Assembly (NCBI GenBank): GCA_946902875.1
Contig: OX336355.1
Coordinates: 7,895,347-7,959,346 of the forward strand
DNA: 64,000 bases
From: Nematopogon swammerdamellus
Taxonomy: Eukaryota > Arthropoda > Insecta > Lepidoptera > Adelidae
Reading direction: 5' to 3'
Part shown: positions 33,501 through 63,783 of the stretch, one piece after another
Layout: the number at the start of each line of letters is the position of its first letter
Numbering within the stretch: position 1 is the stretch's first letter
Notes under the pieces: model-generated
Database searches by the model: none
Seen by the model: the letters and a program-made list of their open reading frames with translations, nothing else
What the model was told of the DNA's origin: nothing
Program-made: the position numbers and the translations under genes

Positions 33501-36500
33501 TGGATCCATGCGCAGAAACCCTGGCCTTTTTACATGCGATTTCAAAACATATTACTGCCACAATAGGGTTTAAAATGTATTGTAAATAATGCAGAGTAAA
33601 ATAAAGAACACATTACAGAAAGAACGAATCAAATACAAGCGACCGCACACATGCAAAGGCCGAAACAAAAGTGGACAAATTTGGCTAAATAAAAACGTAC
33701 CTTTTCAGAGTCTCTTTTAGAAATGACTTTGTATGAAACAATATTAGAGTTATGACCTTTTTGAACAGATCAGCCTATCTACTTTACCACAGACTTCTAA
33801 GAATTGAATTGTCAAACTTCAAACGCTCATAGCAGTTCTAGGAACTAGAAGGTACCCAAATCACGCCTCCTTGGATGAAACTTCGATGAAACTGTCTAAT
33901 ATGAACTATAAATGTATAATAATATGTTCTATATAGTTCATTAGTTATCTGGCTAACTAAAATAATCGCTAAGTATGTGTCTTCTATACAAATATTTTTT
34001 ATTTTGAATTTTTTGTTCGAAACATTCGCGCGCGCATTCAACTCGCGCCGCCATTTTGTAAAATAAGTTCTGACCAAAAAAAACCCTCCCCACAGACCAG
34101 AGTTTAACCTCTAGAGTTTAACGTCAGATCCTAATCAGTCTATATTTTCTTCAAGAAACCTAGGCTTCTTTAGATAAGCTCCTACATGTAAAGAGCTTCG
34201 CAGGCAACACTGGCAGCCTCATACAGAAATTGAATCAGTAGAGAGAGGGAAGTCCGCATCGTATCATTCACGGAGACATTTTGGTTGACAACATAACAGA
34301 AGGAGAGCCGCATCCGGCGTCCGATGAACGCGTTCATGATATTCTCGAAGCGTCACCGCGGCCTCGTGCACCAGCGGCACCCCAACCAGGACAACCGCAC
34401 CGTCAGCAAGATCCTCGGCGAGTGGTGGTACGCGCTCGGCCCCGACCAGAAGCAGAAGTACCACGAGCTGGCGAGCGAGGTCAATATCCTGTTCTCTTTT
34501 CTCATACTTCTGTTATTTTAACCCACCCGCTGTGGTACCGCCTCATTGAATGAAAGGTTGGTCAACACTTTGACCAACCTTTCATATATAAATAGTTTGT
34601 GTTTCCCGTTCAGTTCTGTATTGCCGACACACCTAAAGGGAAGCACTGATATGGCATCTATAGTTCACTAAGTAGTTATGTACAGATGGTGTAGGTGATG
34701 TAGGTAGACAACCGTGTCAATTTCCATACAACAATTTTTACTACAGATTATTGATGGACCCAGGGTTGCCAGATGGTCCAGATAAAAAAAGAGGACATTT
34801 TTCTTTGATTTTTCGGGTAAAACTTTTACGAAAAATCTATCCCCCCTTTGTTTTGTCCGCGGAAGTCTAAAACTTTTCCGCAGACAAGACTTCAAAAAAG
34901 AGGACTGTCCGCGGTAAAAGCGGACACCTGGCAACCCTGATGGATCCCCACATAGTTTAACTTCATTCAGGGCGGTGGTATCGATCCGGACTGGTTACGA
35001 GCAGCTCAAAACTTGACTTTCATATTGTCTTTTACGAACAGCCTCAGGGCCATTGTCTGAATCATTGTACGCTGCAGGTGAAGGAGGCGCATTTCAAAGC
35101 TCACCCCGAGTGGAAGTGGTGCAACAAGGACCGGCGCAAGTCGTCGGGCGGCCGCGAGCCGGCGGGCTCGACGCCGCAGTCGCCGCGCACGCCGCTCGAC
35201 CCGGCCGGCGTCGGCCTCGCCGCCGACATCCCGCTCTCCGTCGCCACCTTCAACCACGCCTCGCCGCACCCGCCCAGCGACGATGAGCAGATGGTGACAT
35301 ACACTCTCCATCGCGTATTATCTTAGGGTTCCGTTCAATCTGAATTCAGAGACTTGTTTTCGAACTCCACAATTTGTCTTTTTTAGGTTTCCGTATCCCG
35401 TACGGAAGCCTATTACTAAGCCTACGCCGTCTGTCTGTCCGTCCGTCCGTCTGTCCGAGGGCTGTATCTCTTGAACCATAATAGGTAGCCCGTTGAAATT
35501 TTCACAGAATATGTGTTACTATGACGGATATAACAACAAATAAGAAAAATAAGAAAATGTTAAAAATTAAGGGGGCTCCCATACAACAAACGTACGAAAA
35601 ATCGATTAGTCACGCTACTGAATAATATATGGCGCCACAGGCTTTTATACATTGCATTGTTGAAAGACAAAAGATAGCCGCTCAATTGCCAACAACCTCA
35701 TTGAGGTGCTGTCATTTTCCCACCGTCAATTGCCATCGACCTCATTGAGGCTTCTCTCCGATCATTTTTTTTTTTTTTTATGGACCCTGACACGGTTGGC
35801 TACATCACCTACAACATCCGTGATGTCAGCCTATAACACAGGGTGAACTAGGTGCCATGTCAGTGCTTCCCTTCATTTCATGTCGGCTACACTAAACTGG
35901 ACGGAAAACACGAACTATTTACATAGCCGTTTCGACCGACGTTTCGTTCAGTGCGGTGGTACCAACCCGGCCGGGATAAACCCTACCACCTAGTAAGGTA
36001 AGAAGGGAAGGGACCTACAGTTTAACGTGGAATCCGAACCACGGTCAGCCTCCAACGGTCGAGCGGTCACCCATCCAAACACTGACCGCGCTCAGCGTTG
36101 CTTAATAACAGTTGACTAACCAACCGCGCCACTGAGCTACCGAGGCTGACGAATTTTCTTATCCCTTAGTCGACTTTTACGACATGCGACGGGGAGAGAT
36201 GCAGTGGGGCTATTCTTTTTAAGTACCGACCCCACACGGTACAAATCATCATCCTACATATCTTCGAAATTAAAAATCGAAGACCATACCACCTGAGCGG
36301 ATAGGCGAATATTATTGATAGCGGATAGATACGGAAACCTCCGTGCGCGAGTAAAACTCGCACTTGACAGATTTTTTTTCTTATTGTAACAGAACATCAA
36401 TCCTTAATTCAACAAAAATGATGAGACACATTTACCTCCAAGTACTCTTGGGTCGCTCCCTTTTTCCTTTCCCTACTTCATCATTCTGTATACCTTGGAT

Positions 36501-42500: not shown

Positions 42501-45500
42501 TAGGTAAATGCAAATCCGATATTAAAGAGAAAATAATAAAAATCGGCCAAGTGTGTGTCGGCCCACGCACAGTGAAGGGTTCCGTAGTTCCAACACACAC
42601 TTGGCCCATTTTTTACTTTCCCCAGGGAAAACAGCATGCAAGGAGTTGGAGGTAGGAGGTGTGGAACTAAGCGTGCGATGGCTTCACCGAACATATCCGG
42701 GCCCATCGGCAGTAGAGGAGGATGTTAATCGGTCGGGACTAGCGAGTGGCCACTCTAAATTTCCCGCGCATGCTTCACGTTTCGGCTCGCATCAAGCCCT
42801 CATCACCTAGTCTGCGTTGACTAGGACGCGGGGAACCACCAGTCCCGTTCTCGACCTCCCTCTCTCTACCTATCCATATTCTGTAGGATGCTTCCAGTGA
42901 CGTTTTCGAAGCTCTCTCCATATATGAGCTTAGCGTCGATCTTGGCAGCCCTAGATTCTTGAAGATACTCTACCTACAGCGACTTTGCTGGTAGCACTCT
43001 TGCTCCGACTTCCACAGCGAAGTCAGTCTTGAATCGGTTTCTCACAGTCCGGTCTAATAAGTTGCAGTACTTGTCAAATTTTATATTGTGGTCCTTCGGT
43101 ATGTTACTTTCCCATGGAACTGTAAGTTCAACAAGTACTACATGCTTTGTCACTTTTGAGAATATGAGTATATCCGGTATCCGGTCTAAATGCTGTGATA
43201 CAGATTTCCGAAGGCATCTGGTAATGCTTCTCGTGTGTCCATCAACAATTCCCTGAAAAATGTTTCTTGGAAGTCATACAGTTGATCTTCGGGACTCTGC
43301 CTACAGCCTGGGAGGTCAAGTCTTTCGGCTAGGCATCGATCGTGTTGCTTCCAAGTGGTCTCGGATATGCTTGGTGAGCTTAGTCGGTCTGTGGGCGAAA
43401 ATGGTTCATGGTGAGAGGAATGTTGCGCAACACTTTGTGACGTGTGAGGTTGTACTCTGTCAATAGTGTCAGGTGGAGAAACTTACAGGCGCTTTCTGCC
43501 CTGCTTCACTGTCACTACTCATAATCATCGGCCTGATGGCGAAATGGTAACGCGCTGGCGGTCCCAGGAGTCCCAGTGCTTAGTCCATGTTGGGCGACAC
43601 ATTATTTTTTTTTATTTTGTTGGTAAACACTAGCAGAGCAGCTGTACGCTGATCGAAGCTTTCTTGGCTTTCAGTAAGCAAGACGACAAACTCAGCACTC
43701 AATGACTTCACCGAACATCCCCAGGCCCATCGAAAGTAGGAGAAGGTCCAAACGAATACGAGACAAGCGATTGGCCAATCTTCCTCCCAGCATACTAGAC
43801 ATTTCGGCTCGCGTCGAGCCCTTATCGGCTAGTCTATACGTAACGCAAAACGTAAGAGCCGATACGCAACGCATGCTGGAGAACTACAGAGTGGCCACTC
43901 GCTAGTCCCGACCTAGATGGAAACCCTCCTCTACTGCCAATGGACCCGGATATGTTCGGTGAAGCCATCGCAAGTTTATTACCTTTAAGTTTTGTTTAAA
44001 CTAACCGAAATGTTATATACAGGAGCATCGGTAGGATCCCAAGGCAGCAACGACGCGGCGCCGCCGCGCGGTTTGTCCGAATCTGGCCCTCCGACGCCTC
44101 GTGCGACGCCCGACGAGCCCCTGCCTTCACCCAAGCAAACTGGCGACACGGTCAGCAGCCCTTCCCTCAAGAAGAGCCTGTTCAGAAGAGCCACAGAGGA
44201 TGGACGCGACAAGTCAGTCTCTTTTCCTTGTTATGTTCAGTTCTTTTTTTGTTGCGGGATAACTGGTGTGTCTGTAAGTGGTCCCCCATCAATCTAATGT
44301 TCCGATTCCGTATAAAGCCCTTACAATCCCTTTATTGCCTTACAATGCCGGATGAAACGGCTATGATCAATCGTTAATGAGATCCTTCCAGTTTAGTATA
44401 ACTGACATCAACAAAAATACTATAATAGCGGGTAATTCCGGTAGCAACTAGCGGCGGGTGGCCGAGTGGTTTGGGCATCGGCTTCTCATGCGAGAGGTCC
44501 GAGATTCGAATCTGGTCGGCGTGTACCAATGAGTTATTTCTGACGAAAAAATTTACGTGCATACCTACACCTGCTGCTTCACCGTTCGGAACCGGTGTAA
44601 AACTGTAGGTCCCTTCCCTTGCCCCTTACTAGGTGGTAGGCTCAAATTGTAGCTGACTGGGTTGGTATCACCGTACTGAATGTAAGATGGCCGCATAGCA
44701 GCCTCGGCTGTATTCTCCTCTAGTCCAGTATAGCCAGCAATCCAGGGAAGTCTCCGGTATGGGACCTACCTTCTCGGAGGTGATATTGACTGGTCGGAGC
44801 ATGCGCTTTGGCCCCTTCGATTCAGCCACCCATACCGCATTACATAAAATAAAAAAATCAACAAAAATACTATAATGGCGGGTAATTCCGGTAGCAGCTC
44901 AGATAGCAGTGGCACTAAGAATAAAGACGTGTGTGTGTTGTCAGGGTGCTGGAGACGGTGAACTTTGAGCAGAAGTTCTCGACGCTGCCGCAGTTCAAGC
45001 CGGACGCCTGCAGCCCGAGCACGCTGGTCGTGCCCAACTCTCCGCAGGTCTACCTACGCAAGAAGCACAACAAGACTCACATCGCCGGTACGCTTCACTC
45101 ATACCTTGTTATTGTTGTTCGGACTCGTTCTCCGCGCTTAAGCCCACTCCATTGCAGGCCTTTTGCGCGTCCTACGGCCTTACTGCAACCAGCCGTTCTT
45201 CCAGGAGGCGGCACACTCTCTTTGGCGCGCCTCTCGGAGTGTATTAGGGCCTCCCAGCTCCTTCGCCCTTATGTCTGCCACCTCCTCGCACTTCAGCAGC
45301 GCGTGGGTGGGTGTCTCGTCCGCCTGCAGGCATTCTCTGCACCGTGGACTGTCCGTTACTCCAATTACATAGAGGTGTCTGTTGAGTGTACAGTGACCAG
45401 TAAGCATACCTATCACCACACGCAGTTTTGCTCTATGGACACGAAGCAGCGTCTTGGTGAGACGGAGGTCCGGCTTCGTCTGTTTGCAGTCACTGCCCGC

Positions 45501-48500
45501 TGCCCATCTGTCTATGTGTAGCTGATACGTACGCTTGTGGATCCAACTTTTCAGTTGGATCCACAAGCGTACGTCACTCATACCTTACTCTCTCTATCTC
45601 TGTCTTTTCCTTCTCTCTCAATCCCCCGCCTGCCTCCCTCTCCTCTCCCTCTCCCTGTCTACCTCTCTATATCTACTCCGGTCCCTCTTCTTCTCAATAT
45701 ATTGTGAGAGCATATTCCGCATTTTGCGACAGACGACGAGGGCGCCGCGTGCACGCCGCTGAGCGAGACGGAGCTGCTGGAGAGCGGGGCGATGCCGACG
45801 CCGCACTCGTACAGCACGCCGCACTCGGGCAACAACGCGGCCAAGCTGGTCGGCAACACATTCTTTGGGCCGGACTTCAACATCGACACCTTCAGGGGTA
45901 CGTACCTACCTACTTACACATGTTTTGACAGACGGCGAGGGCGCCGCGTGCACGACGCTGAGCGAGACGGAGCTGCTGGAGAGCGGGGCGATGCCGACGC
46001 CACACTCGTACAGCACGCCGCACTCGGGCAACAACACGGCCAAGCTGGTCGGCAACACATTCTTTGGGCCGGACTTCAACATCGACACCTTCAGGGGTAC
46101 GTACCTACCTACCTACACTTGTTGCGACAGACGACGAGGGCGCCGCGTGCACGCCGCTGAGCGAGACGGAGCTGCTGGAGAGCGGGGCGATGCTGACGCC
46201 GCACTCGTACAGCACGCCGCACTCGGGCAACAACGCGGCCAAGCTGGTCGGCAACACATTCTTTGGGCCGGACTTCAACATCGACACCTTCAGGGGTACG
46301 TACCTACCTACCTACACATGTTGCGACAGACGACGAGGGCGCCGCGTGCACGTCGCTGAGCGAGACGGAGCTGCTGGAGAGCGGGGCGATGCCGACGCCG
46401 CACTCGTACAGCACGCCGCATTCGGGCAACAACGCGGCCAAGCTGGTCGGCAACACATTCTTTGGGCCGGACTTCAACATCGACACCTTCAGGGGTACGT
46501 ACCTACCTACTTACACATGTTTTGACAGACGGCGAGGGCGCCGCGTGCACGACGCTGAGCGAGACGGAGCTGCTGGAGAGCGGGGCGATGCCGACGCCGC
46601 ACTCGTACAGCACGCCGCATTCGGGCAACAACGCGGCCAAGCTGGTCGGCAACACATTCTTTGGGCCGGACTTCAACATCGACACCTTCAGAGGTACCTA
46701 CCTACCTACCTACACATGTTGCGACAGACGACGAGGGCGCCGCGTGCACGCCGCTGAGCGAGACGGAGCTGCTGGAGAGCGGGGCGATGCCGACGCCGCA
46801 CTCGTACAGCACGCCGCACTCGGGCAACAACGCGGGCAAGCTGGTCGGGAACACATTCTTTGGGCCGGACTTCAACATCGACACCTTCAGAGGTACCTAC
46901 CTACTTACACATTTTATTTTTTTTATGTAATCCGGTATGGGTGGCTGAGTCAGAGGGGCCAAAGCACATGCTCTGACTAGCCAATATCACCTCCGAGAAG
47001 GTAGGTGCCATACCGGAGACTTCCCTGGATTGCTGGCTATACTGGACTAGAGGAGAACACAGCCGAGGCTGCTATGCGGCCATCCAGTACGGTGGTATCA
47101 ACCCAGTCGGCTACAATTTGAGCCTACCACCTAGTAAGGGGCAAGGGAAGGGATCTACAGTTTTACAGCGGTTCCGAACGGTGAAGCAGCAGGTGTAATG
47201 AAATGAAATGAGAATATACTTTATTGCACAAAAAGTGACAAAAGGCGGACTTAAAGCCTACGTATGCACGTAAATTTTTTCATCAGAAAAAACTCCGAAC
47301 GCCGACCGAATTCGAACCGCGGATCTCTCACATGAGAAGCCGATGCCCAAACCACTCGGCCACCCGCTGCTTTGTTTCTCCTTTTGTTGCTGCCAGTATC
47401 CGAGTGGGCATTCATCAGTAGTTTGGTTTAGGGATCAGTCAGTTTCTGTTCTGTCTAACATTCTGACAGGTATTTAACTCTTTGATGATGTATCATTACA
47501 GTTTTTAAATTCATCACATTGAACAGGGGTCGAAAGTTAAGCGTAACAGCAATATTCGATAATGTTTAATAATTTCTAAGTATTAAGGCAGCTGAAACAT
47601 TGATTTGATAGTTGAGGGAATAAAGAACAGAAAATGTGATATGGCCATTGTTTAGTTATCACAATACAATTTCATTTTGTGTGTTTTATAACCTGCATCC
47701 AGCTTCATCTCCAATACAGCTAGACTCAAATTCACTACGGTATAGACCTACAGACTTTACTAAGCACCCCGCATTGTGTTATATGTGTACATAGCATGGA
47801 TACTGAAGCGGCACTATGACTGCCCAGAGCTGGAAAGCATGTTTGTGTTTAATTCAAACACTCACCTAAGAGGTCACAGCTTGAAACTCAATGTAACAAG
47901 CTTCTCAACCGAAGCAAGAAAACACTTCCTGACTAACAGAATCGTAAACAGCTGGAATAAACTGCCCGAGGAAGTTATTGAAGCATCCTCAATAAACACA
48001 TTCAAAAATAGGCTTGACAAGTATTTAAAATCGAAGAAATATAACCAATAGCAACACCAGTGATCATCATAGACATGAACACATCAGCATACTAAGCTGC
48101 TAGTTCATTATTAACAAATAATAATAATAACACAAAGCCGGGTTTTGTGGGTGTTTATGGGTATGTTTGTTGCAACAGTTGTGTCGGAGAGCGTGGAGGA
48201 GATGTCGCCGCGGACGCCGTGCAGCGCGGGCGGCGGCGGCGGCGGGGGCGGGGCGGGCGGCGGGGGCGGCGGCGCGGGTGCGGGCGCGCGCGGCGAGGCG
48301 GGCCACCGGCGCGTGCTGGAGCAGCGGCGGCAGCTCGTGCTGAAGCTGTTCCACGACCACGGCATGTTCCCCTCCACCCAGGCCACCACGCACTTCCAGG
48401 TCACTCGATATTATGATTATAAATTCAAGTGAGAGTAGTTACTTCGTAACAGATAAATCACTCCATATAAAAAGTTCCATACCTTCGGCTTTAATAGCCT

Positions 48501-50165
48501 ACTGATTCACGTCGCCATTCGCTGCGTGCGAAAATGTACCTAAACGATCGAGTGTAAAGTGATTGCTTTGCAGCTGCGCGCAGTAGCATGGGCGAGCGTG
48601 TAGGTATGCTTCGCGCGGCTGGCGAATTTCCGCTGAATTAGACCGCCGGCGGCCCGCTGGGCGGTAGATAGTTAGCGCGCGCAAGTACATAGAGTGCGTG
48701 AGGCCTGGTTAGGGCCCCTGAGCTCTGTTATCACTGCGTCCTTAAGATCTATTGTGATCTTTCCAAAAGGTTACAGCTAACCCCCAAGTACCATTTCCTC
48801 TGTGAACCGAGTTGTATCGTTGGGGTATAAGTAGGTCACTCGATAACGTCACTCTGTTGTGTAGGAAACAGGCAGAAATGCTTTGAAGTTTGTAAGTGCA
48901 TTCTCTGACTGCTACACAGGTCAGAGTGGGTCCAGGTGCATTTTTTGTTTACCGTGGACCCACGGGTGGGGAGTAGTGGTGGGTTCACAGGTCGTGAACA
49001 ATTTCTTTCATGAATGCATTTTTCTCATGTGAGTAAACTACCTAGTAAGACCTTACTAAGTGATATAGGTCTAGTTCAGTGTGGCTGACATAACAGAAGG
49101 GAATCGCTCGCATTGCATCTAGCTCCTAGATTCAATGTTCCAGTATGTGTTCTTGTGAAAGGGTTGTGCAAATGCTGATATCAAGCTGACATGGCATTCA
49201 AAAATCGTCGTGCATAGCTAAATGTCCATGGGCATCGTTAGCTAGGTGGAACAATGCCACATGAAGATGGCCCGAAATGTCGGATCACATAGTTCCACAA
49301 ACAGCTTTGAGTAAAGAAGTTTTTTTTTGGTATTTTAATGCGAGGTTGACACCTATTACACGTGACCAAATCTCAATAAAAGCCAGCCAGATAAGAAACA
49401 TAAGAAACACAAAAAATATGTAATGACGACAATATTGTTGACAGGCGTCGCACATGGACATCTTCCCGAACAAGATGTCGCTGCAGCTGAAAATCCGCGA
49501 GGTGCGGCAGAAGCTGATGGCTCAGAACAGTCTCACGCCACACTCGGACCTCAGCACGCCCACCAGTGAGCATTTACTATTCTCTGTAATATTTTTTTTT
49601 ACTTCTTTTTGCAAGCTTATGCGGCGCGCGAACAGCCATTCTATTAGCATGGTGAGAAATAACAGGCAAGAAAACTCGCCGGCGGTCAAGAAGTCGCCTT
49701 AAGAAGTTAACTGAGAAGTGCTTCTCATTTATCACGTATTTACTTACACCTTGTTCTTAGTGTTCCTCCCAAACATTTGTTTTGTGTTTAGATTGATTTA
49801 AATCCAGTTTAACGCTAAATCGAACACACTATAATGCGACAAAAGTCAAAATTTGCATCGTCCCGTTCAAAGCCGAACATGACGGAACGAACGTGTGCTA
49901 TCCGCTGTCGCACAAGGTCAACTGACGTCACGCGGGTGGCGGCCAATATGCATTGCAGGCGGGAAGAAAGTCGATTCCTATTGGTCACGCCATAGGGTAC
50001 ATCGTTGTATTATTTGTGCTGTGTTGGACTGTACAGTTGTCCCTAAGTTTCGAACCACAGACTTTCGCTCGAGAGGCCACCACCTTAACATGTATAACTC
50101 TTGCAGATGTGAACTCTCCGATGGTCTCAGCGCCGAGCCTGCAGCCCTCCTCAACGGCCAGTTAG
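6427..50165 (+). CDS. cic: capicua (HMG-box transcriptional repressor), multi-exon gene
   Basis: Seen: about 28 GT-AG exons join in one consistent frame from ATG 6427 to TAG 50163-50165. They are 6427-6501, 12364-13044, 16972-17124, 21312-21513, 22319-22418, 23066-23287, 27205-27510, 28321-28420, 28671-29681, 30255-30338, 31560-31647, 32337-32546, 33278-33423, 34300-34479, 35078-35293, 36670-36854, 37476-37612, 38238-38435, 38989-39225, 39805-39954, 40767-40869, 42334-42479, 44023-44212, 44945-45087, one of six copies at 45733-46892, 48179-48399, 49445-49565 and 50107-50165. The sum is 5829 nt, 1942 residues plus stop. Known of the family: Capicua is a nuclear repressor binding TGAATGAA-type sites through its HMG box and C1 domain, and is relieved by ERK signalling. 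Both domains, the N1 motif and long-isoform blocks are present. Least certain are the first exon and the number of repeated exons used. Confidence 0.93.
6502..7157. other. start of cic intron 1, nothing recognised
   Basis: Follows the donor at 6502. It contains several short open frames without homology. I see no repeat or gene. Confidence 0.4.
7158..7357. mobile_element. MITE with ~55-bp inverted repeats
   Basis: The left arm (7158-7214) and right arm (7303-7357) are near-perfect inverted copies, including TATTTCGGCGAAA. The centre carries two direct copies of gataatyactgaagacgg. Confidence 0.8.
7685..7890 (+). repeat. tRNA-type SINE, 3' part
   Basis: Blocks caccaccgtactggatgta, catagcagccttggctgt, gtatggcactttttctgagg and tgatattggctggt match the SINE body and tail of 44449-44855. 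The head is missing. Confidence 0.7.
8458..9478 (-). mobile_element. RLE-type LINE, 5'-truncated copy A
   Basis: On the - strand it has an intact C-terminal frame from about 9490 to the stop at 8625: CCHC-type finger [18 protein letters not shown], then the restriction-like endonuclease core [20 protein letters not shown] followed by VPWE. The 3' UTR ends aagcttagatccacacctt. The reverse transcriptase is missing. Nearly identical to copies C, D and H. Confidence 0.9.
9650..9736 (+). CDS. cic: cic candidate alternative first exon
   Basis: A very GC-rich island at 9608-9736 stands out from AT-rich intron, as the confirmed cic exons do. From ATG 9650 it reads [20 protein letters not shown] and continues to QYADIDDQ at a donor (CAG followed by GTAGAG) in phase 0. 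That is compatible with the acceptor at 12363. An upstream acceptor-like ttag/cag is present at about 9597-9606. I have no homology support for this peptide. Confidence 0.3.
9755..10933. other. cic intron, no gene recognised
   Basis: AT-rich with short open frames lacking homology. It contains the palindromic repeat at 10763-10825. Confidence 0.4.
10763..10825. repeat. two 18-bp palindromes GCGGCCGATATCGGCCGC
   Basis: A perfect palindrome at 10763-10780 and a one-mismatch copy (GCGACCGATATCGGCCGC) at 10808-10825, both followed by tcca. Confidence 0.85.
10934..11168 (+). mobile_element. RNase H-type LINE, 3' fragment
   Basis: Matches the last 230 bp of the LINE at 19800-21240, including actgacagactcaacctg, ccttggggcgagctcagg, actatggggctggcatag and an A-rich tail. 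Frame-disrupted. Confidence 0.85.
11435..11908 (+). mobile_element. RLE-type LINE, 5'-truncated copy B
   Basis: Starts inside the endonuclease domain (ttacagttccatgggaaag), carries a 2-nt insertion in aacttaacaaaagtactgc that breaks the frame, then reads to GGFPAS stop at 11741 and the usual 3' UTR. Confidence 0.88.
11909..12183 (+). repeat. SINE (5S-like family), + strand
   Basis: Starts cgatgggtgaccgtttgacc, the 5S-like box of the family head. It then runs through ggtaccaccgcactgaat and ttatgggctgacatcat, and ends gatgtagccaaccgtgtcag. It abuts the 3' end of LINE copy B exactly. Confidence 0.72.
12364..13044 (+). CDS. cic: cic exon 2, long-isoform N-terminal domain
   Basis: Encodes about residues 26-252. 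An internal ATG at 12445 (MANPTNQGP, context ataacaATGG) could be used for initiation if the upstream exons are non-coding. A basic block [14 protein letters not shown], a possible nuclear localisation signal, precedes a proline/glutamine stretch and then the conserved block [20 protein letters not shown]. That block is typical of long Capicua isoforms, whose N-terminal region is annotated as a DUF4819-type domain. The exon ends FKVK in phase 0 at GTGAGC. Reading past the donor adds an open tail to 13149, which I consider intron. Confidence 0.88.
13273..13517. mobile_element. MITE with ~100-bp inverted repeats
   Basis: aaggtctttcattagtaggt at the left is inverted at the right (acctactaatgaaagacctt). 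The arms extend through tacgctaaggggtgtatgtg. Related ends are seen at 18388-18880. Confidence 0.85.
13885..14115 (+). mobile_element. LINE 3' end (Jockey/CR1-like tail), diverged
   Basis: gggactttcaagagcggcgt, cgaatgtccatgggcgtcgt and ccttatgggtggctcggcg match the better copy at 40320-40628. Both end ctataaaaa. Confidence 0.7.
14654..14750 (-). mobile_element. LINE 3' tail with (CAA)n end
   Basis: (gtt)n followed by tgctgcccagcctcttggga and gggccattctccgcactgag, the reverse complement of the 3' end of the LINE at 17255-17722. Confidence 0.75.
14905..15890 (-). mobile_element. RLE-type LINE, 5'-truncated copy C
   Basis: Same C-terminal finger and endonuclease frame as copy A (stop at 15076). 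A 1-nt deletion (agctcagggaccag against agctcaggggaccag) breaks the frame near 15860. Otherwise only scattered substitutions. Confidence 0.9.
16131..16535 (+). repeat. tRNA-derived SINE, near full length
   Basis: The head has a polymerase III A-box-like ggtggctgagtggtttgg and B box ggttcgaatcc, as in a tRNA gene. The body contains taggtcccttcccttgcacc, actaggtggtaggctcaag and gggttggta. The tail ends ggtgatattggctggtcgg and cccatactggattacat plus an A-run. Confidence 0.88.
16972..17124 (+). CDS. cic: cic exon 3
   Basis: 51 codons, phase 0 at both ends; acceptor gctgcag and donor CCG followed by GTCTGT. It continues the long-isoform N-terminal domain with [17 protein letters not shown], a block I recognise from Capicua long isoforms. 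The frame is open throughout and strongly GC-rich. Confidence 0.88.
17255..17722 (+). mobile_element. LINE C-terminal fragment, (CAAA)n tail
   Basis: Frame [40 protein letters not shown], then the finger [20 protein letters not shown]. This is the typical region after RNase H in insect I/Jockey-superfamily LINEs. It ends in (caaa)n. It lies just downstream of cic exon 3. Confidence 0.85.
17990..18127 (+). mobile_element. diverged LINE 3' tail
   Basis: accatggggctaacatgtcc and ctgaagccctaaactgaaat plus an A-run resemble the actatggggctggcatagcc ... aaagcct end of the RNase H LINE family. Old copy. Confidence 0.45.
18172..19284. mobile_element. non-autonomous hAT element with 8-bp target duplication
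   Basis: Inverted ends CA-ACATCGGAATCCGCGG (left 18172, right 19284) extend about 28 bp. ATTATAGC flanks both sides (18164-18171 and 19285-19292), the 8-bp duplication expected of hAT transposons. There is no transposase; the interior holds a nested inverted-repeat element. Confidence 0.85.
18388..18875. mobile_element. nested MITE inside the hAT element
   Basis: taaggtctttcaaaattagt and gctaagggggggttctgtat at the left are inverted at the right (gatacagaaccccccc, aactaattttgtaagacct). About 200 bp of its left half (18468-18673) is repeated directly at 18889-19083. Confidence 0.8.
19303..19470 (-). mobile_element. LINE 3' end (fragment)
   Basis: atcaaatcaaatcaaaatat followed by actttattgtacaccataaa is the reverse of a LINE end carrying a tttgatttga-type tail. 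A related end lies at 47203-47268. Confidence 0.5.
19620..19798 (-). repeat. repeat fragment with ccttagtcgccttttacgac block
   Basis: Contains ggggaccttcgtgcaaaac, cccttagtcgccttttacga and gaccccac, blocks also found at 22820-22900, 28070-28160, 32150-32225 and 36160-36235. Confidence 0.55.
19800..21240 (+). mobile_element. RNase H-bearing LINE, 5'-truncated (I/Jockey superfamily)
   Basis: An open frame runs to a stop at 21154, about 450 residues. [20 protein letters not shown] is typical of the end of the reverse transcriptase. The RNase H domain starts [20 protein letters not shown], with the catalytic-type acidic residues in [17 protein letters not shown] and ILTDSKSAL, and later [15 protein letters not shown]. 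Then comes a CCHC finger [17 protein letters not shown]. The 3' UTR actatggggctggcatagcc ends in a poly-A tract at 21228-21238. It sits about 70 bp before cic exon 4. The polymerase domain is lost. Confidence 0.92.
21312..21513 (+). CDS. cic: cic exon 4
   Basis: Acceptor gcgacag, phase 0 in, phase 1 out (ATAG followed by GTACTG). Encodes [18 protein letters not shown], a short glycine run, then an acidic stretch [17 protein letters not shown] and [16 protein letters not shown] with an A-rich end sits only about 70 bp upstream of the acceptor. Confidence 0.85.
21768..21825. repeat. inverted repeat gagtgtatttgact
   Basis: gagtgtatttgact(aactc) and gagtcagtcaaatacactc form a hairpin of about 19 bp arms in cic intron 4. 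Confidence 0.7.
21897..22127. mobile_element. MITE with long inverted repeats
   Basis: gtagagtgttttcattttac at the left is inverted at the right end. The arms also include aggtaggaagtggtg and ccgcgcggagctcagtag, giving a nearly complete fold-back of 231 bp. Confidence 0.85.
22319..22418 (+). CDS. cic: cic exon 5
   Basis: 100 nt, phase 1 in (acceptor gacttcag), phase 2 out (CG followed by GTAAAT). Encodes [20 protein letters not shown] followed by [12 protein letters not shown], a Ser/Arg-rich segment matching the block that leads into the cysteine motif in Capicua long isoforms. Confidence 0.87.
22551..22912 (-). repeat. SINE (5S-like family) body with alternative head
   Basis: Poly-T, then the usual blocks to cagtgcggtggtaccaaccc and ctaccacctagtaatataag, followed by tcatatcccttagtcgcctt instead of the 5S-like head. 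Ends gccccacacggtac. Confidence 0.8.
23066..23287 (+). CDS. cic: cic exon 6, conserved cysteine block
   Basis: Phase 2 in (tctcgcag), phase 2 out (CATCG followed by GTCAGT). Encodes [20 protein letters not shown], then a cysteine cluster [20 protein letters not shown] and RHLSLRG. The three cysteines plus histidine suggest metal binding, which is inference. This is among the most conserved long-isoform segments. A SINE poly-T tract begins a few bases past the donor. Confidence 0.92.
23291..23420 (-). repeat. SINE fragment directly after cic exon 6
   Basis: A T/G-rich run then ggaaactgacactgtttgct, catccgtgatgtcagccca and gtcgtgccggctacac. Its A-tail begins within about 4 bp of the exon 6 donor. 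Confidence 0.75.
23618..26360 (-). mobile_element. RLE-type non-LTR retrotransposon, best copy (D)
   Basis: An intact 845-residue frame (23786-26323, - strand). Reverse transcriptase: [29 protein letters not shown], motif [21 protein letters not shown], motif [21 protein letters not shown], motif [15 protein letters not shown]. Then the finger [18 protein letters not shown] and a PD-(D/E)XK-type endonuclease [20 protein letters not shown]. This order (RT, CCHC finger, restriction-like endonuclease) marks the R2/R4/NeSL/HERO group rather than APE-type LINEs. The N-terminal DNA-binding part is absent, so it is 5'-truncated. It lies antisense in cic intron 6. Motif B has QGCCLSP where QGCPLSP is usual. 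Confidence 0.93.
27205..27510 (+). CDS. cic: cic exon 7
   Basis: Phase 2 in (gcgttctcag), phase 2 out (CATCAG followed by GTCTGC). Encodes a Ser-rich start, [20 protein letters not shown], then a Gly/Pro-rich run and [16 protein letters not shown] 3' fragment begins about 48 bp after the donor. Confidence 0.9.
27559..27843 (+). mobile_element. RNase H-type LINE, 3' fragment
   Basis: gaagaggacctactccatat through actatggggccggcatagcc and an A-tail, nearly identical to 20945-21238. It begins 48 bp after the cic exon 7 donor. Confidence 0.9.
28062..28160 (-). repeat. repeat fragment
   Basis: tcggggaccttcgtgcgaaa and gcgaccccagccagcatatg match 19623-19720. Short copy in cic intron 7. Confidence 0.5.
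28321..28420 (+). CDS. cic: cic exon 8
   Basis: 100 nt, acceptor ggttgcag, phase 2 in, phase 0 out (TATCAG followed by GTTAGG). Encodes [17 protein letters not shown] and [12 protein letters not shown], continuing the HLIR end of the previous exon. Confidence 0.85.
28671..29681 (+). CDS. cic: cic exon 9, large exon with 15 heptapeptide repeats
   Basis: 337 codons, phase 0 at both ends (acceptor ttatttccag, donor ACAG followed by GTTGGT). At 28704-29018 there are 15 consecutive 21-bp units with consensus L/M-D/E-V/M-Q-N/S-R-G, for example [21 protein letters not shown] looser Asn/Gln/Ser-rich part follows, then an acidic/charged part and a conserved-looking end, [21 protein letters not shown] know of no heptad array at this place in fly or human Capicua. 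An aliphatic residue at every second position suggests a beta-type repeat rather than a coiled coil. Reading past the donor adds an open tail to 29867 that I take as intron. Confidence 0.88.
28704..29018 (+). repeat. 15 x 21-bp coding repeat in cic exon 9
   Basis: Units code [49 protein letters not shown] twice, [49 protein letters not shown]. The frame is kept in all units. Confidence 0.95.
30255..30338 (+). CDS. cic: cic exon 10
   Basis: 28 codons, phase 0 in (cctttttcag) and out (GAACAT followed by GTATGT). Encodes [20 protein letters not shown] and RGLDNGEH. As a symmetric exon it could be skipped without a frame change. Confidence 0.75.
30488..30560. repeat. fold-back hairpin, 32-bp arms, 9-nt loop
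   Basis: The arms 30488-30519 and 30529-30560 pair with about three mismatches (core aatcaagtaagacgg / ccgtcttacttgatt). Lies in cic intron 10. Could be a small fold-back element or a precursor-type RNA hairpin. Confidence 0.8.
31132..31535. mobile_element. mariner-like MITE
   Basis: Inverted ends TACAGGGTGTCCCAAAACTC and its partner at the right extend about 60 bp (caacgtcaagcgggaacc). TA lies at each end. No transposase. The right end is about 25 bp before cic exon 11. Confidence 0.82.
31560..31647 (+). CDS. cic: cic exon 11
   Basis: Phase 0 in (tgtgtttag), phase 1 out (ATTG followed by GTCAGT). Encodes [20 protein letters not shown] then [11 protein letters not shown] short inverted-repeat element ends only about 25 bp before the exon, so the branch point may lie inside it. 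Confidence 0.82.
31918..32230 (-). repeat. SINE (5S-like family) body
   Basis: A poly-T start, ggaaactgacacggttgact, the usual body, then cttagtcgccttttacgaca and gaccccacacggtac. Ends about 105 bp before cic exon 12. Confidence 0.8.
32337..32546 (+). CDS. cic: cic exon 12, N1 motif
   Basis: Phase 1 in (ttacggcag), phase 1 out (CTCTG followed by GTGAGT). Encodes [18 protein letters not shown], matching the N1 motif of short Capicua isoforms (VFPWHSLVPFL in human), the region that contacts Ataxin-1-family proteins in vertebrates. It is followed by a proline-rich run and six HTP units, then [12 protein letters not shown]. The motif lies inside the long open frame here; a separate short-isoform first exon was not found. 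Confidence 0.9.
32700..32950 (+). mobile_element. possible LINE C-terminal tail
   Basis: The + frame reads [20 protein letters not shown] then FLSLGPDHW stop, resembling the end of some insect LINE polyproteins. No other domain is visible. Confidence 0.4.
33145..33205 (+). mobile_element. LINE tail remnant
   Basis: tatgggtggatcgcgccaca and tgtcacgatttctataaaa match the 3' end of the LINE at 40320-40628. Very short. Confidence 0.45.
33278..33423 (+). CDS. cic: cic exon 13, acidic stretch and 14-3-3-like site
   Basis: Phase 1 in (gctcggcag), phase 0 out (GATAAG followed by GTTCGT). Encodes [16 protein letters not shown], then [25 protein letters not shown] corresponds to the RRTQSLSALP site of human CIC, whose phosphorylated serine binds 14-3-3 and reduces DNA binding. 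Regulation here is inferred from that match. Confidence 0.88.
33424..34299. other. cic intron 13, no gene recognised
   Basis: AT-rich unique-looking sequence. Around 34205-34260 there is weak similarity to the LINE peptide block before GGFPAS (agagagagggaagtccg). Nothing else is supported. Confidence 0.4.
34300..34479 (+). CDS. cic: cic exon 14, HMG box part 1
   Basis: 60 codons, phase 0 in (aacataacag) and out (GCGAGCGAG followed by GTCAAT). Encodes [40 protein letters not shown] and [17 protein letters not shown]. The RPMNAFM start and the GEWWYALGP block are diagnostic of the Capicua HMG box, which binds DNA in the minor groove. An intron splits the box in helix 3. Confidence 0.98.
34535..34735 (+). 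repeat. SINE (5S-like family), fold-back copy
   Basis: gtggtaccgcctcattgaat, tagtttgtgtttcccgttca and gtaggtgatgtaggtagaca are + strand family blocks. A 16-bp hairpin (atgaaaggttggtcaa / ttgaccaacctttcat) interrupts it at 34550-34586. Confidence 0.65.
34761..34939. mobile_element. hAT-like MITE (CAGGGTTGCCAGATG family)
   Basis: Ends CAGGGTTGCCAGATGGTCC and ...GGACACCTGGCAACCCTG are inverted. The same ends are seen at 50620-50947. Flanks are similar (ATGGACC / ATGGATC). Confidence 0.75.
35078..35293 (+). CDS. cic: cic exon 15, end of HMG box
   Basis: 72 codons, phase 0 in (acgctgcag) and out (CAGATG followed by GTGACA). Starts [20 protein letters not shown], the highly conserved end of the Capicua HMG region, then a Gly/Pro-rich part ending HPPSDDEQM. 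Encodes about residues 1187-1258. Confidence 0.97.
35385..36368. mobile_element. gggttccgta-type repeat interrupted by a SINE
   Basis: Starts ggtttccgtatcccgtacgg with a (gtcc/gtct)n run and ends ggaaacctccgtgcgcgag ... actcgcacttgac, typical ends of a repeat common in moths. A complete SINE sits inside at 35765-36155. Confidence 0.55.
35765..36155 (-). repeat. SINE with 5S-rRNA-like head, full-length copy
   Basis: On the - strand it begins near 36150 with gcctcggtagctcagtggcg, then ttaagcaacgctgagcgcgg and gtcagtgtttggatgggtga. The last two match the internal control region of arthropod 5S rRNA closely. Then comes the family body (taggtcccttcccttctta, gttggtaccaccgcactga, gatgtagccaaccgtgtca) and an A-tail at 35765-35780. 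Confidence 0.8.
36670..36854 (+). CDS. cic: cic exon 16
   Basis: Phase 0 in (gttgtcgcag), phase 2 out (CCAG followed by GTAACC). Encodes [20 protein letters not shown] then [11 protein letters not shown]. With the preceding DDEQM it matches the DEERMVICEEE...IDLKCKERVTDS block of human CIC. Confidence 0.95.
37045..37403. mobile_element. PIF/Harbinger-like MITE
   Basis: Inverted ends AGCCGGCTTTC, TTA on both sides (37042-37044, 37404-37406). The interior is rich in cgcacg/cgtgcg in both orientations, giving strong self-complementarity. Confidence 0.78.
37476..37612 (+). CDS. cic: cic exon 17
   Basis: Phase 2 in (ttgcgcag), phase 1 out (GCTG followed by GTATAG). Encodes [18 protein letters not shown] then [18 protein letters not shown]. 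Low-complexity linker; placed by phase and composition. A 359-bp inverted-repeat element ends 72 bp upstream. Confidence 0.85.
37991..38044. repeat. poly-C run followed by (CA)n
   Basis: About 24 consecutive C, then acacgcgcacgc and (ca)n. Simple repeat in cic intron 17. Confidence 0.95.
38238..38435 (+). CDS. cic: cic exon 18
   Basis: Phase 1 in (tattcag), phase 1 out (TATG followed by GTAATT). Encodes [20 protein letters not shown] then a Ser/Gln-rich stretch ending [16 protein letters not shown] 3' tail begins about 14 bp after the donor. Confidence 0.88.
38449..38562 (+). mobile_element. RLE-type LINE, 3' UTR only (copy E)
   Basis: tagagtggccactcgctagt to gcttagttccacaccttcctt, the last 110 bp of the family. 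Starts 14 bp after the donor of cic exon 18. Confidence 0.88.
38989..39225 (+). CDS. cic: cic exon 19
   Basis: Phase 1 in (tctccgcag), phase 1 out (TCCG followed by GTTAGT). Encodes [20 protein letters not shown], a Ser/Thr/Gln-rich region, and [20 protein letters not shown]. Symmetric exon. Confidence 0.88.
39596..39738 (+). repeat. tRNA-type SINE, 3' part
   Basis: tcagtccagtatagccagca, ggtgatattggctggtcgga and cacccataccggattacat plus an A-run. Its end is about 65 bp upstream of cic exon 20. Confidence 0.82.
39805..39954 (+). CDS. cic: cic exon 20
   Basis: Phase 1 in (ttgtccag), phase 1 out (ACTG followed by GTCAGT). Encodes [20 protein letters not shown] then [14 protein letters not shown]. 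It is bracketed closely by retroposons: a SINE end about 65 bp upstream and a LINE about 20 bp downstream. Confidence 0.87.
39974..40272 (-). mobile_element. RNase H-type LINE, 3' fragment
   Basis: Reverse copy of the family end; the frame from 40268 to 40053 encodes [20 protein letters not shown] and ends at the usual stop. The poly-T start is about 20 bp after the cic exon 20 donor. Confidence 0.9.
40320..40628 (+). mobile_element. LINE 3' end (Jockey/CR1-like)
   Basis: The frame reads [20 protein letters not shown], then [20 protein letters not shown], ending PNVHGRR stop. This is the typical end of LINE reverse transcriptases (RTAKLWNSLP...FKR). The tail ends ctataaaaaaaa. Confidence 0.75.
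40767..40869 (+). CDS. cic: cic exon 21
   Basis: Phase 1 in (gcttacag), phase 2 out (ATCTC followed by GTAAGT). Encodes [20 protein letters not shown] and [14 protein letters not shown]. Confidence 0.83.
41003..41620. mobile_element. inverted-repeat element, 3-bp flank duplication
   Basis: Ends GGGCCTTATTCTGAA and its inverse, arms continuing cctaacgcctaatc. CTG lies on each side (41000-41002 and 41621-41623). The interior has mirrored Ctctcgtctcgtcgcc-type blocks. Confidence 0.8.
41632..41701 (+). pseudogene. exon-like remnant in cic intron 21
   Basis: After ctgaacag the sequence is GC-rich and codon-like. It reads [19 protein letters not shown] before a donor-like AG/GTTTGC, or in another frame [17 protein letters not shown]. 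At 70 nt it fits neither neighbouring phase, so it is not used in the main frame. It may be a decayed exon or exon duplicate. Confidence 0.35.
42334..42479 (+). CDS. cic: cic exon 22
   Basis: Phase 2 in (gttgaacag), phase 1 out (AGAG followed by GTAACA). Encodes [20 protein letters not shown], then [18 protein letters not shown] and [11 protein letters not shown]. Confidence 0.85.
42536..42618. repeat. short inverted repeat (cggccaagtgtgtgt)
   Basis: aaaaatcggccaagtgtgtg pairs with acacacacttggcccatttt around a gggttccgta core, a small piece of a repeat family common in moths. Lies about 55 bp after the cic exon 22 donor. Confidence 0.65.
42652..43256 (-). mobile_element. RLE-type LINE, 5'-truncated diverged copy F
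   Basis: Same 3' UTR and endonuclease-region sequence as copy A but with several indels (for example an insertion in gaagatactctacctacagc, a duplicated tatccgg). The frame is broken. Older than A, C, D and H. Confidence 0.88.
43698..43977. mobile_element. head-to-head LINE 3' UTR pieces
   Basis: 43698-43880 resembles a diverged - strand 3' UTR (cttcaccgaacat, ttcggctcgcgtcgagccct). 43886-43977 is a + strand piece (agagtggccactcgctagtc ... tgaagccatcgcaag). They form an inverted pair that ends about 45 bp before cic exon 23. Confidence 0.7.
44023..44212 (+). CDS. cic: cic exon 23
   Basis: Phase 1 in (atatacag), phase 2 out (GACAA followed by GTCAGT). Encodes a Pro/Ser-rich part with several SP/TP dipeptides ([19 protein letters not shown]), candidate proline-directed kinase sites, then [19 protein letters not shown]. 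This aligns with the LKKTFDSVDNR lead-in of human CIC. Confidence 0.9.
44449..44855 (+). repeat. tRNA-derived SINE, full length
   Basis: Head gcgggtggccgagtggtttg (A box) and gagattcgaatct (B box), resembling a tRNA with long variable arm (Leu/Ser type). Then taggtcccttcccttgcccc, actaggtggtaggctcaaa, gggttggtatcaccgtactg, and tail cacccataccgcattacat plus an A-run. The flanking atcaacaaaaatactataat occurs at 44408 and 44857, a target duplication of about 20 bp or more. Confidence 0.9.
44945..45087 (+). CDS. cic: cic exon 24
   Basis: Phase 2 in (gttgtcag), phase 1 out (GCCG followed by GTACGC). Encodes [40 protein letters not shown]. It matches [20 protein letters not shown]...YRKKRKNS of human CIC. 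It is the constant exon spliced to the repeated exons that follow. Confidence 0.95.
45108..45573 (-). mobile_element. LINE C-terminal fragment with target duplication and 5' fold-back
   Basis: The - strand frame [40 protein letters not shown], then the finger [19 protein letters not shown]. Related to the LINE at 17255. The direct repeat TCACTCATACCTT flanks it at 45095-45107 and 45574-45586. At its 5' end lies a perfect 21-bp palindrome. Confidence 0.9.
45528..45573. repeat. perfect hairpin, 21-bp arms, 4-nt loop
   Basis: Arms 45528-45548 and 45553-45573 (core cttgtggatccaact / agttggatccacaag), loop tttc. Confidence 0.95.
45587..45715 (+). promoter_or_regulatory. long pyrimidine-rich tract before exon array
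   Basis: Mostly C/T over about 100 bp (ctctctatctctgtctttt, ctccctctcctctccctctc) upstream of repeated exon copy 1. Such tracts bind splicing regulators of the PTB type; a role here is inferred. Confidence 0.5.
45733..45897 (+). CDS. cic: cic repeated exon, copy 1
   Basis: 165 nt, phase 1-1, reads [20 protein letters not shown] then [20 protein letters not shown]. It is preceded by a 645-bp intron whose last 150 bp is strongly pyrimidine-rich, so it has the best acceptor context of the array. Confidence 0.88.
45932..46096 (+). CDS. cic: cic repeated exon, copy 2
   Basis: Reads [20 protein letters not shown] and has NNTAKLV where others have NNAAKLV. Its acceptor is tgttttgacag, the same as copy 5. 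A 34-nt intron lies on either side. Confidence 0.82.
46131..46295 (+). CDS. cic: cic repeated exon, copy 3
   Basis: Reads [20 protein letters not shown] and has AMLTPHS where the others have AMPTPHS, losing one proline. Acceptor ttgcgacag. Confidence 0.82.
46330..46494 (+). CDS. cic: cic repeated exon, copy 4
   Basis: Reads [20 protein letters not shown]; the intron after it is identical to the one after copy 1, supporting a three-unit duplication. Confidence 0.82.
46529..46693 (+). CDS. cic: cic repeated exon, copy 5
   Basis: Reads [20 protein letters not shown] as copy 2 does, with NNAAKLV. Its donor differs slightly (AGAG followed by GTACCT), shared with copy 6. Confidence 0.82.
46728..46892 (+). 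CDS. cic: cic repeated exon, copy 6
   Basis: Reads [20 protein letters not shown] with NNAGKLV. It is followed by a 1286-bp intron containing a nested SINE/LINE, so it is the only copy with a normal-length downstream intron. Confidence 0.86.
46920..47375 (-). repeat. tRNA-derived SINE interrupted by a LINE end
   Basis: The - strand SINE with tail (46920) and tRNA-like head (aattcgaaccgcgg, ccactcggccacccgctgc near 47309-47370). At 47200-47268 it is split by aatgaaatgaaatgagaata and ctttattgcacaaaaagtga, another LINE's 3' end. Confidence 0.85.
47690..48110 (+). mobile_element. LINE reverse-transcriptase C-terminus (CR1/L2-like)
   Basis: The frame to the stop at 48051 reads [40 protein letters not shown] and [14 protein letters not shown], the characteristic end of this LINE group. 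Ends in (taa)n about 50 bp before the cic exon 26 acceptor. Confidence 0.8.
48179..48399 (+). CDS. cic: cic exon 26, start of C1 domain
   Basis: Phase 1 in (gttgcaacag), phase 0 out (TTCCAG followed by GTCACT). Starts [17 protein letters not shown], then a long glycine/alanine run, then [20 protein letters not shown] and [12 protein letters not shown], matching [23 protein letters not shown] of human CIC C1. C1 acts with the HMG box in DNA binding. A LINE remnant ends about 70 bp upstream. Confidence 0.95.
49150..49270 (+). mobile_element. diverged LINE tail
   Basis: ctgacatggcattcaaaaat, taaatgtccatgggcatcgt and aacaatgccacatg resemble the tail at 40530-40615. Confidence 0.4.
49445..49565 (+). 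CDS. cic: cic exon 27, core of C1 domain
   Basis: Phase 0 in (tgttgacag), phase 1 out (CACCA followed by GTGAGC). Encodes [20 protein letters not shown] then [20 protein letters not shown]. The [16 protein letters not shown] block is the hallmark of the Capicua C-terminal domain. Reading past the donor stays open to a stop at 49702. Confidence 0.97.
50107..50165 (+). CDS. cic: cic last coding exon
   Basis: Acceptor aactcttgcag, phase 1 in; encodes [18 protein letters not shown] and ends at TAG 50163-50165. Short Ser/Pro-rich tail as in other Capicua C-termini. No clear polyadenylation site can be assigned. Confidence 0.85.
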
Positions 50166-61671: not shown

Positions 61672-62110
61672 CTACTCTTCATGCGACTCATATTTAATGA
61701 TAAGGTTCGGTTTCTCTTCTTCGAGTGCGGCCAGACCTGTTTCCATTTCCTTATCATCGCCAGGATCTGTCACAACTAATATCTTTAGAGCTGTCATCCT
61801 AGCCAACGCTATAATACTGCCCGGCTTCACCGTACAACCCGATATGTCCAAGTACTCCAAAGATTGACTAATTAGTCCTGCGATTCTATCCATACACCAT
61901 TCGTCAATATGTGTGTTGTTGCGGAGAGAGAGCCATTTCAACAAAGTGAGATTGGCTAAATTCTCGAGTCCCTCGTAGCGAAGACCTCCATTGTGAAAGG
62001 TGCTAGCGTCTATTGCCTCAATGTAGAATCTCTCGTTGAAGCGATTGGGCACCTGCGGCAATTCATCTGTTGTCGGATCTCCTTTGATCCATGTTTGGCT
62101 GCCTTTCAGT
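61672..62110 (-). CDS. ATP synthase subunit s / DMAC2 (ATP5SL)-like protein, last exon
   Basis: A - strand exon starts after a tttgttttcag acceptor (exon begins at 62110, phase 2) and runs to a stop at 61672. It encodes about 146 residues: RFNERFYIEAIDASTFHNGG, then leucine-rich-repeat-like segments LTLLKWLSLRNNTHIDEWCM and SQSLEYLDISGCTVKPGSII, ending NLIIKYESHEE. This layout resembles the mitochondrial leucine-rich family comprising ATP synthase coupling factor s (ATP5S) and distal membrane-arm assembly protein 2 (DMAC2), the latter a complex I assembly factor. I cannot separate the two. The upstream exons are not visible and probably lie beyond 64000; a LINE occupies 62418-63783. The gene is convergent with cic. 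Confidence 0.75.
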
Positions 62111-62417
62111 CTGAAAACAAATAGTTTACAGACGTAAAAAGTCAAAACTACACTACAGTTTGCAACTTGCTGGAAATTACATCAAGCATCAGGAAACATT
62201 CATATAAATAGGATCAGATCGCAGAGTGACTGCGAAAGAGTTGCACCATACTTGTGCAAAGAGGTCAGAATGATCACTCAGAATGAAAATAAAAGTAATA
62301 ATTTTTTTTATTTTATTGAGCATGGCCTCCACGTTTCGCGGTACGTCACAAGGCTAGTGGGAGGTCAGTACGGGGTTCCTCTTCCGTATAGGGAATTCAA
62401 TTCCGTAATAGGACGAG

Positions 62418-63783
62418 TCACCCGGCTGACTCGTCAACGCTGTACAGATCTAACAATAACTTTGGACTGAACATTAAGAAACCGTCGATATTTTATCAAA
62501 AGGCGAGAATAGCCAAACGATGTATACTCAAAGACTCCAATGAGAGCGCTATTCAAGCCTTACCCAACACATCACTATCAGATGAACTGGAATCGAGACT
62601 CGACTTCTACAAATCATTCCAAGTTGGTACACGCACCAATAGATCTGGATTGGGCATAGAAACAGCAAAGTCTGATAAAGAAATACAGAAAGGTTTTGCT
62701 CAGGAGGACATGGAACAAGGCTTCAAACTTCACGCCTTAAACCTAGAAATGCAGAATGATTGGCTAACAGTGGGCGACTTCTGCATCCCTCCTGCATTGA
62801 AGTGGAAATCCATAATATACAACTGGTCCCCTGAGCTGCTTAAGTTCTACTTAAATGCATTCCAGCTTACTCTCCCCGACCCGAGTAACCTAGTTAGATG
62901 GGGGAAATCTACAAATAGACTATGCCCGTCATGTAAGGAGTTCGTAGGTACGGCCAAACATTTGTTATGCGGATGCAAAATACTACTTGAGCGAGGCCAG
63001 TATTCCTACCGTCATGATAAAGTCCTCCAAATCATCAGAGAGGCCATCAACCTGTCAATTGCACGGACCAGGAAAGGGCAAACCAGTAGCGGCTTCCAGA
63101 AGGTCAACTTCGTGAAAGCTGGAGCCAATAAGCTGCCCAAAGATAGGACTAAACCTTCTTCAATTTTGGGAGCAGCAAAGGATTGGGAATTGTTGATGGA
63201 CACACATGAGAAGCATTACCAAATGCCTTCGGAAATCTGTACCACAGCATTAAGACTGGATATACTCATATTCTCAAAAGCGACAAAGCATGTAGTACTT
63301 GTTGAACTTACAGTTCCATGGGAAAGTAACATAACGAAGGACCACAACGTCAAACTTAACAAGTACTGCAACTTAGTAGACCGGATTGTGAGAAACGGAT
63401 TCAAGACTGATCTCTTCGCTGTGGAAGTCGGAGCAAGAGGACTACCAGCGAAATCGCTCTACAGTCTCTTCAAGAATCTAGGGCTCCCAAGATCGACGCT
63501 AAGCTCATATACGGAGAGAGCTTCGAAAACGTCACTGGAAGCATCCTACAGAATATGGATAGGTAGAGAGAGGGAGGTCGAGAGCGGGACTGGTGGTTTC
63601 CCCGCGTCCTAGTCAATGCAGACTAGCTGACGAGGGCTTGAAGCGAGCCGAAGCGTGAAGCATGCGCGGGAAATTTAGAGTGGCCACTCGCTAGTCCCGG
63701 CCTCGATTAATACCCTCCTCTACTGCCGATGGGCCCCGATATGTTCGGTGAAGCCATCGCAAGCTTAGATCCACACCTTCCTT
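62418..63783 (+). mobile_element. RLE-type LINE, 5'-truncated copy H
   Basis: Starts within the reverse-transcriptase C-terminal region (acccggctgactcgtcaac) and keeps an open frame to GGFPAS stop at 63612: finger [18 protein letters not shown] and endonuclease [20 protein letters not shown]. Note LDIL where other copies have PDIL, so the catalytic proline is changed. Usual 3' UTR to cttagatccacaccttcctt. Confidence 0.92.

Follow-up and report, generated by a model that had tools for sequence, protein, structure and literature searches.

The capicua (cic) gene of Nematopogon swammerdamellus carries one of its exons six times in tandem, in an array at 45733-46892 of the 64,000-nucleotide stretch of DNA analyzed here (the window). 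Each copy is 165 nt long and encodes 55 residues, and the five spacers between the copies are each exactly 34 nt long and all run from GT to AG. Our preferred explanation, which we hold tentatively and at somewhat less than even confidence, is that this is a real, lineage-specific tandem duplication of a single cic exon that grew by unequal exchange, and that its splicing would be governed by nearest-neighbor exclusion rather than by a strict choice of one copy out of six.

The array and its gene

Capicua is a growth-control gene that acts as a central brake on receptor-kinase signaling. The window contains most, if not all, of the coding sequence of a plus-strand cic gene, whose spliced model comprises 1552 residues in 19 pieces, with approximate boundaries and gaps; the closest homologues are more than 1200 residues long. 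The gene encodes an HMG box (PF00505, 57.3 bits, 34300-34482), part of DUF4819 (within 12445-13044) and a C1 domain that is split over two exons (48179-48399 and 49445-49565) and matches the solved chain 7m5w_A, 'Protein capicua homolog' (phmmer E 6.8e-20). Its stop codon ends at 50165. Among the matches listed, the last 235 residues of the model are most similar to capicua from Trichoplusia ni (70%, E 3.4e-91), followed by capicua matches from Papilio xuthus (69%), one unnamed source (67%), Ostrinia furnacalis (67%) and Hyposmocoma kahamanoa (67%). These are the five closest homologues referred to below, and we take the four named species to be Lepidoptera. Since HMG box, DUF4819, C1, exon order and peptide agree with the closest homologues among CIC transcription factors, we assign the gene, on similarity, to lepidopteran capicua. 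It departs from that family at the array locus, where the exon is present in six copies, whereas its motif never occurs more than once in the 120 listed homologues.

Two further expansions are visible in the model. In another cic exon, coding 21-bp repeats (28726-29002) give rise to a seven-residue, GLDVQNR-like repeat, and this simple motif has 11 matches in the model versus one or two in the five closest homologues. Directly before C1, a Gly-rich expansion (48224-48286) contains a longest Gly run of 8, versus 2-4 in the same homologues when whole proteins are counted. The introns of cic also hold an open reverse-transcriptase reading frame of 873 residues (23786-26407, minus strand; PF00078) and a 473-residue reading frame (19733-21154, plus strand) that is presumably RNase H-like. 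Pieces that by eye are very similar to the C-terminus of the reverse-transcriptase frame lie at 8625-9557 (minus), 15076-15939 (minus) and 62392-63612 (plus), and a leucine-rich-looking reading frame lies downstream of cic on the opposite strand (61672-62181, minus).

The features of the array and its surroundings are, in order along the window:

44450..44857 (+): mobile-element copy, left arm of an inverted pair
44945..45087 (+): cic exon 15 in our numbering, the last before the array, ending in phase 1; aligns with the five closest homologues
45527..45574 (+): perfect intronic hairpin (22-bp stem, 4-nt loop) ahead of copy 1
45720..45725 (+): CATTTT at the left array end; the same six bases recur at the right end (46910-46915), possible duplication microhomology
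45733..45897 (+): exon copy 1; three TP; codons 2, 9 and 22 intact
45898..45931 (+): 34-nt spacer 1
45932..46096 (+): exon copy 2; D2G, P9T, A36T; two TP; CTTAC branch-point-like site 15 nt upstream
46097..46130 (+): 34-nt spacer 2
46131..46295 (+): exon copy 3; P22L, where the five closest homologues have Pro; three TP
46296..46329 (+): 34-nt spacer 3
46330..46494 (+): exon copy 4; P9S; two TP
46495..46528 (+): 34-nt spacer 4, same sequence as spacer 1
46529..46693 (+): exon copy 5; D2G, P9T; two TP; CTTAC branch-point-like site 15 nt upstream
46694..46727 (+): 34-nt spacer 5
46728..46892 (+): exon copy 6; A37G; three TP; codons 2, 9 and 22 intact
46913..47371 (-): same mobile element inverted, right arm; begins 20 intronic nt after copy 6
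48179..48399 (+): next cic exon after the array, with a Gly-rich stretch and the first part of C1
49445..49565 (+): cic exon with the remainder of C1
50107..50165 (+): last coding cic exon, stop codon included

The original prediction had placed six tandem copies of one cic exon, separated by 34-nt introns, at 45733..46892, and both TRF and a comparison of the copies bore out these exact coordinates. TRF returned a period of 199, 6.0 copies, 96% matches and a score of 2203, figures that rule out chance. The copies had further been described as complete, phase-symmetric (1-1) 55-codon exons with their own splice sites, which is true of all six: they are homologous, equal in length and in the same phase, the reading frame is open throughout, CAG precedes and GT follows each, and the GT and AG dinucleotides are intact at every copy. 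On either side, the preceding exon ends in GCC G before gt (45087), and the following exon begins with TTGTG after cag (48179). The array also sits where it was expected, just before C1, as the next exon carries the first part of this domain by its similarity to 7m5w_A.

Variation, origin and reality of the copies

The six copies vary at 9 of 165 exon positions, without indels, and all six peptides are distinct. Amino-acid changes fall in codons 2, 9, 22, 36 and 37, and silent ones in codons 24, 31, 41 and 55. The last 18 codons show zero amino-acid variation across the copies, and in its core this invariant block is conserved in many of the 120 listed homologues. When constraint was tested by the ratio of amino-acid to silent events among the six copies, there was no significant signal (6 vs 4, ratio 0.47, p = 0.26, with few events). 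Two hits at codon 9 in ten events look striking, yet by our own estimate they are fairly often expected by chance. Variable positions make up 5/34 of the spacers vs 9/165 of the exon (p = 0.07), which is suggestive only of greater variation in the spacers.

At six informative two-state sites, all four combinations occur in 11 of the 15 pairs, which points to exchange of sequence between copies. Identity within the array peaks at a distance of 597 nt (96.7%), with 95.9% at 199 and 398 nt, 93.7% at 796 nt and 94.5% at 995 nt. This peak, the identity of spacers 1 and 4 and the presence of both D2G and P9T in copies 2 and 5 hint at a block duplication of three units. The spacers look like a fusion, near CAT, of the right flank with the left flank, and at its right end the array borders the T-rich terminus of a mobile element. 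The sequence fits a scenario in which one cic exon would have been duplicated in tandem via short microhomology, after which unequal exchange would have expanded the array to six copies. That the copies are so similar supports the earlier suggestion of a recently expanded array.

We consider the array to be genuine, with little doubt. An assembly artefact appears extremely improbable: while a single assembly is our sole source, the array spans just 1.2 kb of a 19.7-Mb contig (C24) and the window contains no N. The copies moreover differ by substitutions only, and variants are recombined among them, which speaks for a real array. A DNA search of the whole assembly (699 Mb, 39 contigs) returned at least six matches to the exon, and all the listed ones lie inside the array.

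The 120 listed homologues, out of 176 found, all contain the FFGPDF-type motif of the exon exactly once (one mismatch allowed); several of them are isoforms of one gene or nameless, and annotated models may hide copies with tiny introns. The homologues were drawn from 7981 candidates sharing most words, at protein lengths of 0.55-1.75 times that of the model. The earlier remark that no such array is known in fly or human cic can be extended to insects, in the sense of a single motif in 120/120 listed homologues, a set assembled by similarity rather than by naming human or Drosophila melanogaster proteins. We met no published cic exon array of this kind in the open-licence PMC literature, which is not proof of absence.

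Splicing and the 34-nt spacers

Whether adjacent copies can be joined depends on how short an intron this species can remove. In human splicing, donor and branch point must be at least 46 nt apart (PMC11291888), and the shortest intron described for Bombyx carboxylesterases is 68 nt (PMC3017765). Steric hindrance, with less than 50 nt between donor and branch point, has been described for 57 human clusters, or 9% of clusters of mutually exclusive exons (PMC5740500); between neighboring cic copies the whole spacer is 34 nt, with the branch point placed by motif only. In spacers 1 and 4, a predicted branch-point-like A lies 18 nt from the donor of the neighboring copy; the A ahead of copy 5 is separated by 217 nt from the donor of copy 3. 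Within 45 nt upstream, the yTnAy motif precedes copies 2 and 5 only, and some acceptors may be weak or unused, since it is missing upstream of copies 1, 3, 4 and 6. Contrary to these limits, Plutella introns of 28 nt (PMC4358871) and 33 nt (PMC5333385) are on record; they may be gene-model errors or real, and on their account Lepidoptera may be able to splice introns so short. The claim that neighbors probably cannot be joined is therefore plausible, given the predicted 18-nt distance and the human and Bombyx values, yet unproven in view of the Plutella introns. The same evidence bears on a reading in which all 34-nt introns are spliced and the six copies are joined, adding 275 residues. The canonical GT and AG ends of the spacers and the published Plutella introns speak for it. 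We nevertheless regard it as highly unlikely, given that 34 nt is below the human donor-to-branch-point need, that a search of spacers 2, 3 and 5 found no yTnAy and that the listed homologues have a single motif, although this last point is uninformative on the present species.

The arithmetic of the array is permissive beyond single copies. Joining copy n to copy n+2 leaves an intron of 233 nt. There are 21 sets of copies without neighbors (one empty, six single, ten double and four triple, hence 20 non-empty), and in our computation all 21 remain in frame and keep the normal C-terminus, giving 21 different proteins; each extra copy would thus add 55 residues with the frame unchanged, as had been proposed. 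If one spacer is retained, the frame changes and C1 is lost in all five adjacent pairs, again as foreseen, and retention of two or more leads to an early stop 178-189 residues into the model (10/10). A mutually exclusive choice of one copy, one of the options proposed, does not follow from the spacers. Short spacers bar neighbors only, and ten two-copy and four three-copy sets keep the frame and leave no intron below 233 nt, so that geometry bars neighbors at most and does not force one-of-six.

On the explanation we prefer, each 34-nt spacer, which contains the donor of one copy as well as the acceptor of the following one, would serve one neighbor at a time. An mRNA could then carry one copy, or two or three non-adjacent ones, always in frame. 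Most transcripts would probably contain a single copy and encode a nearly normal Capicua; additional copies would each contribute 55 residues with two or three TP sites just before C1. The likeliest state, in our assessment, is a young, real array whose neighbors are not joinable and most of whose mRNA has one copy.

Comparison with known exon arrays helps to place this rule. Classical cases of steric hindrance are typically pairs, and Dscam exon 17 is reportedly such a case (Yue et al. 2013). The cic array shares with them donors that lie too close to the following copy's branch point, but it has five successive 34-nt spacers, so that the rule would be a chain. Dscam1 arrays consist of divergent copies and employ RNA docking; the cic copies, in contrast, differ at just 9/165 positions. 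What the two have in common is a large exon array in an insect gene, as in the exon 4, 6 and 9 arrays of Dscam1 (PMC8042237). Tandem exon duplication has also been described as a source of mutually exclusive exons (PMC6071210, PMC5740500), and according to these sources such exons are adjacent, homologous, equal in length and phase and arise by local duplication together with bits of both flanking introns, much like the cic copies. The cic array differs in its six near-identical copies, its uniform 34-nt spacers and its want of a convincing docking site, and in that only neighbors are barred.

Strict one-of-six splicing, by steric exclusion combined with docking and selector pairing as in insect Dscam, is a reading we consider unlikely. 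That the exons match in length and phase and are highly similar is in keeping with it, and in pairing with the upstream intron spacers 2 and 3 outperform 98 of 100 shuffles. Spacers 1, 4 and 5, however, beat only 84, 94 and 95 of 100, the best downstream pairing beats 92, and the spacers are so nearly identical that selectors would hardly discriminate among them; spacing alone, moreover, permits n to n+2. The docking signal was weak: with five spacers against two flanking introns (10 tests) and simple base-composition shuffles, 2 of the 10 reached the 2% level, none better. A closer and strong rival is that the duplication is passive, with nearly all mRNA coming from a single copy, probably one of the outer two (1 or 6), and the others tolerated as slowly decaying decoys. 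We find this doubtful, though clearly the most serious of the alternatives. Each outer copy has one full-length neighboring intron. The acidic residue of codon 2 and the Pro residues of codons 9 and 22, common to the five closest homologues, are all intact only in copies 1 and 6, with one or two altered in each of copies 2, 3, 4 and 5; that the intact pair should be the outer one has a chance of 1/15, for a pattern spotted post hoc. The seven-residue repeat and the Gly run likewise look as though repeats simply accumulate in this gene. Against passivity, frames and splice dinucleotides are intact in all six copies, albeit after few mutations so far, and the yTnAy sites precede copies 2 and 5 rather than 1 or 6. 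The hints on copy use thus conflict, codons favoring the outer copies and yTnAy copies 2 and 5, and neither is strong.

The surroundings of the array raise a further possibility. Exon 15 and the array are enclosed by inverted copies of a mobile element of about 400 nt, whose arms match at 92% over 292 nt and 85% over 118 nt, with a predicted duplex of -613 kcal/mol. A 43-nt direct repeat, 95% identical, flanks the left element (44407-44449 and 44857-44899) and resembles a long target-site duplication. Inverted repeats in flanking introns have been described as a route to circular RNA (PMC6769675); here, complementary inverted elements lie in both flanking introns, a layout that can favor circular RNA or skipping, by analogy. 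The elements might fold the pre-mRNA into a hairpin that leads to circular RNA or to skipping of the block, the array mainly feeding that pathway, which we think improbable. The same family is found at six other places in the window, three in each orientation (left-arm-like near 7692, 16133 and 39597; right-arm-like near 112, 35949 and 60143), so the arrangement around the array may be a coincidence and other copies may pair as well, and omission of the 143-nt exon 15 would shift the frame. This route is compatible with nearest-neighbor exclusion, and its probability overlaps with that of our preferred explanation.

Possible kinase sites beside C1

Copies 1, 3 and 6 contain three TP dipeptides each, and copies 2, 4 and 5 contain two, having lost the first. 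The five closest homologues likewise have three TP in the 38 residues before FFGPDF. Across the 120 listed homologues, the number of SP/TP dipeptides in those 38 residues is 0 in 10, 1 in 82, 2 in 22, 3 in 5 and 4 in 1. For non-adjacent, non-empty sets of copies the TP total ranges from 2 to 9, so the choice of copies could alter how many kinase sites lie next to C1. In fly Cic, ERK must phosphorylate several sites at once (PMC13086492), and EGF-driven export of the mammalian protein depends on S/T-P residues near C1, among others (PMC9814488). By analogy, the TP dipeptides of the exon may be ERK sites, and the copy-dependent TP number would make for a testable dial. It is conceivable, though rather unlikely, that any non-adjacent set of copies is used, placing 2-9 TP kinase sites beside C1 as a length- and dose-coded dial of the ERK response, to which the inverted elements may add a circular-RNA or skipping route.

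Nearest-neighbor exclusion itself would leave a simple signature. If neighboring copies exclude each other, junctions from n to n+2 but never from n to n+1 would be found, and these can be read from ordinary RNA-seq. The array therefore offers a natural test of the smallest gap that an insect spliceosome removes, and of what becomes of exons that are packed below that limit.
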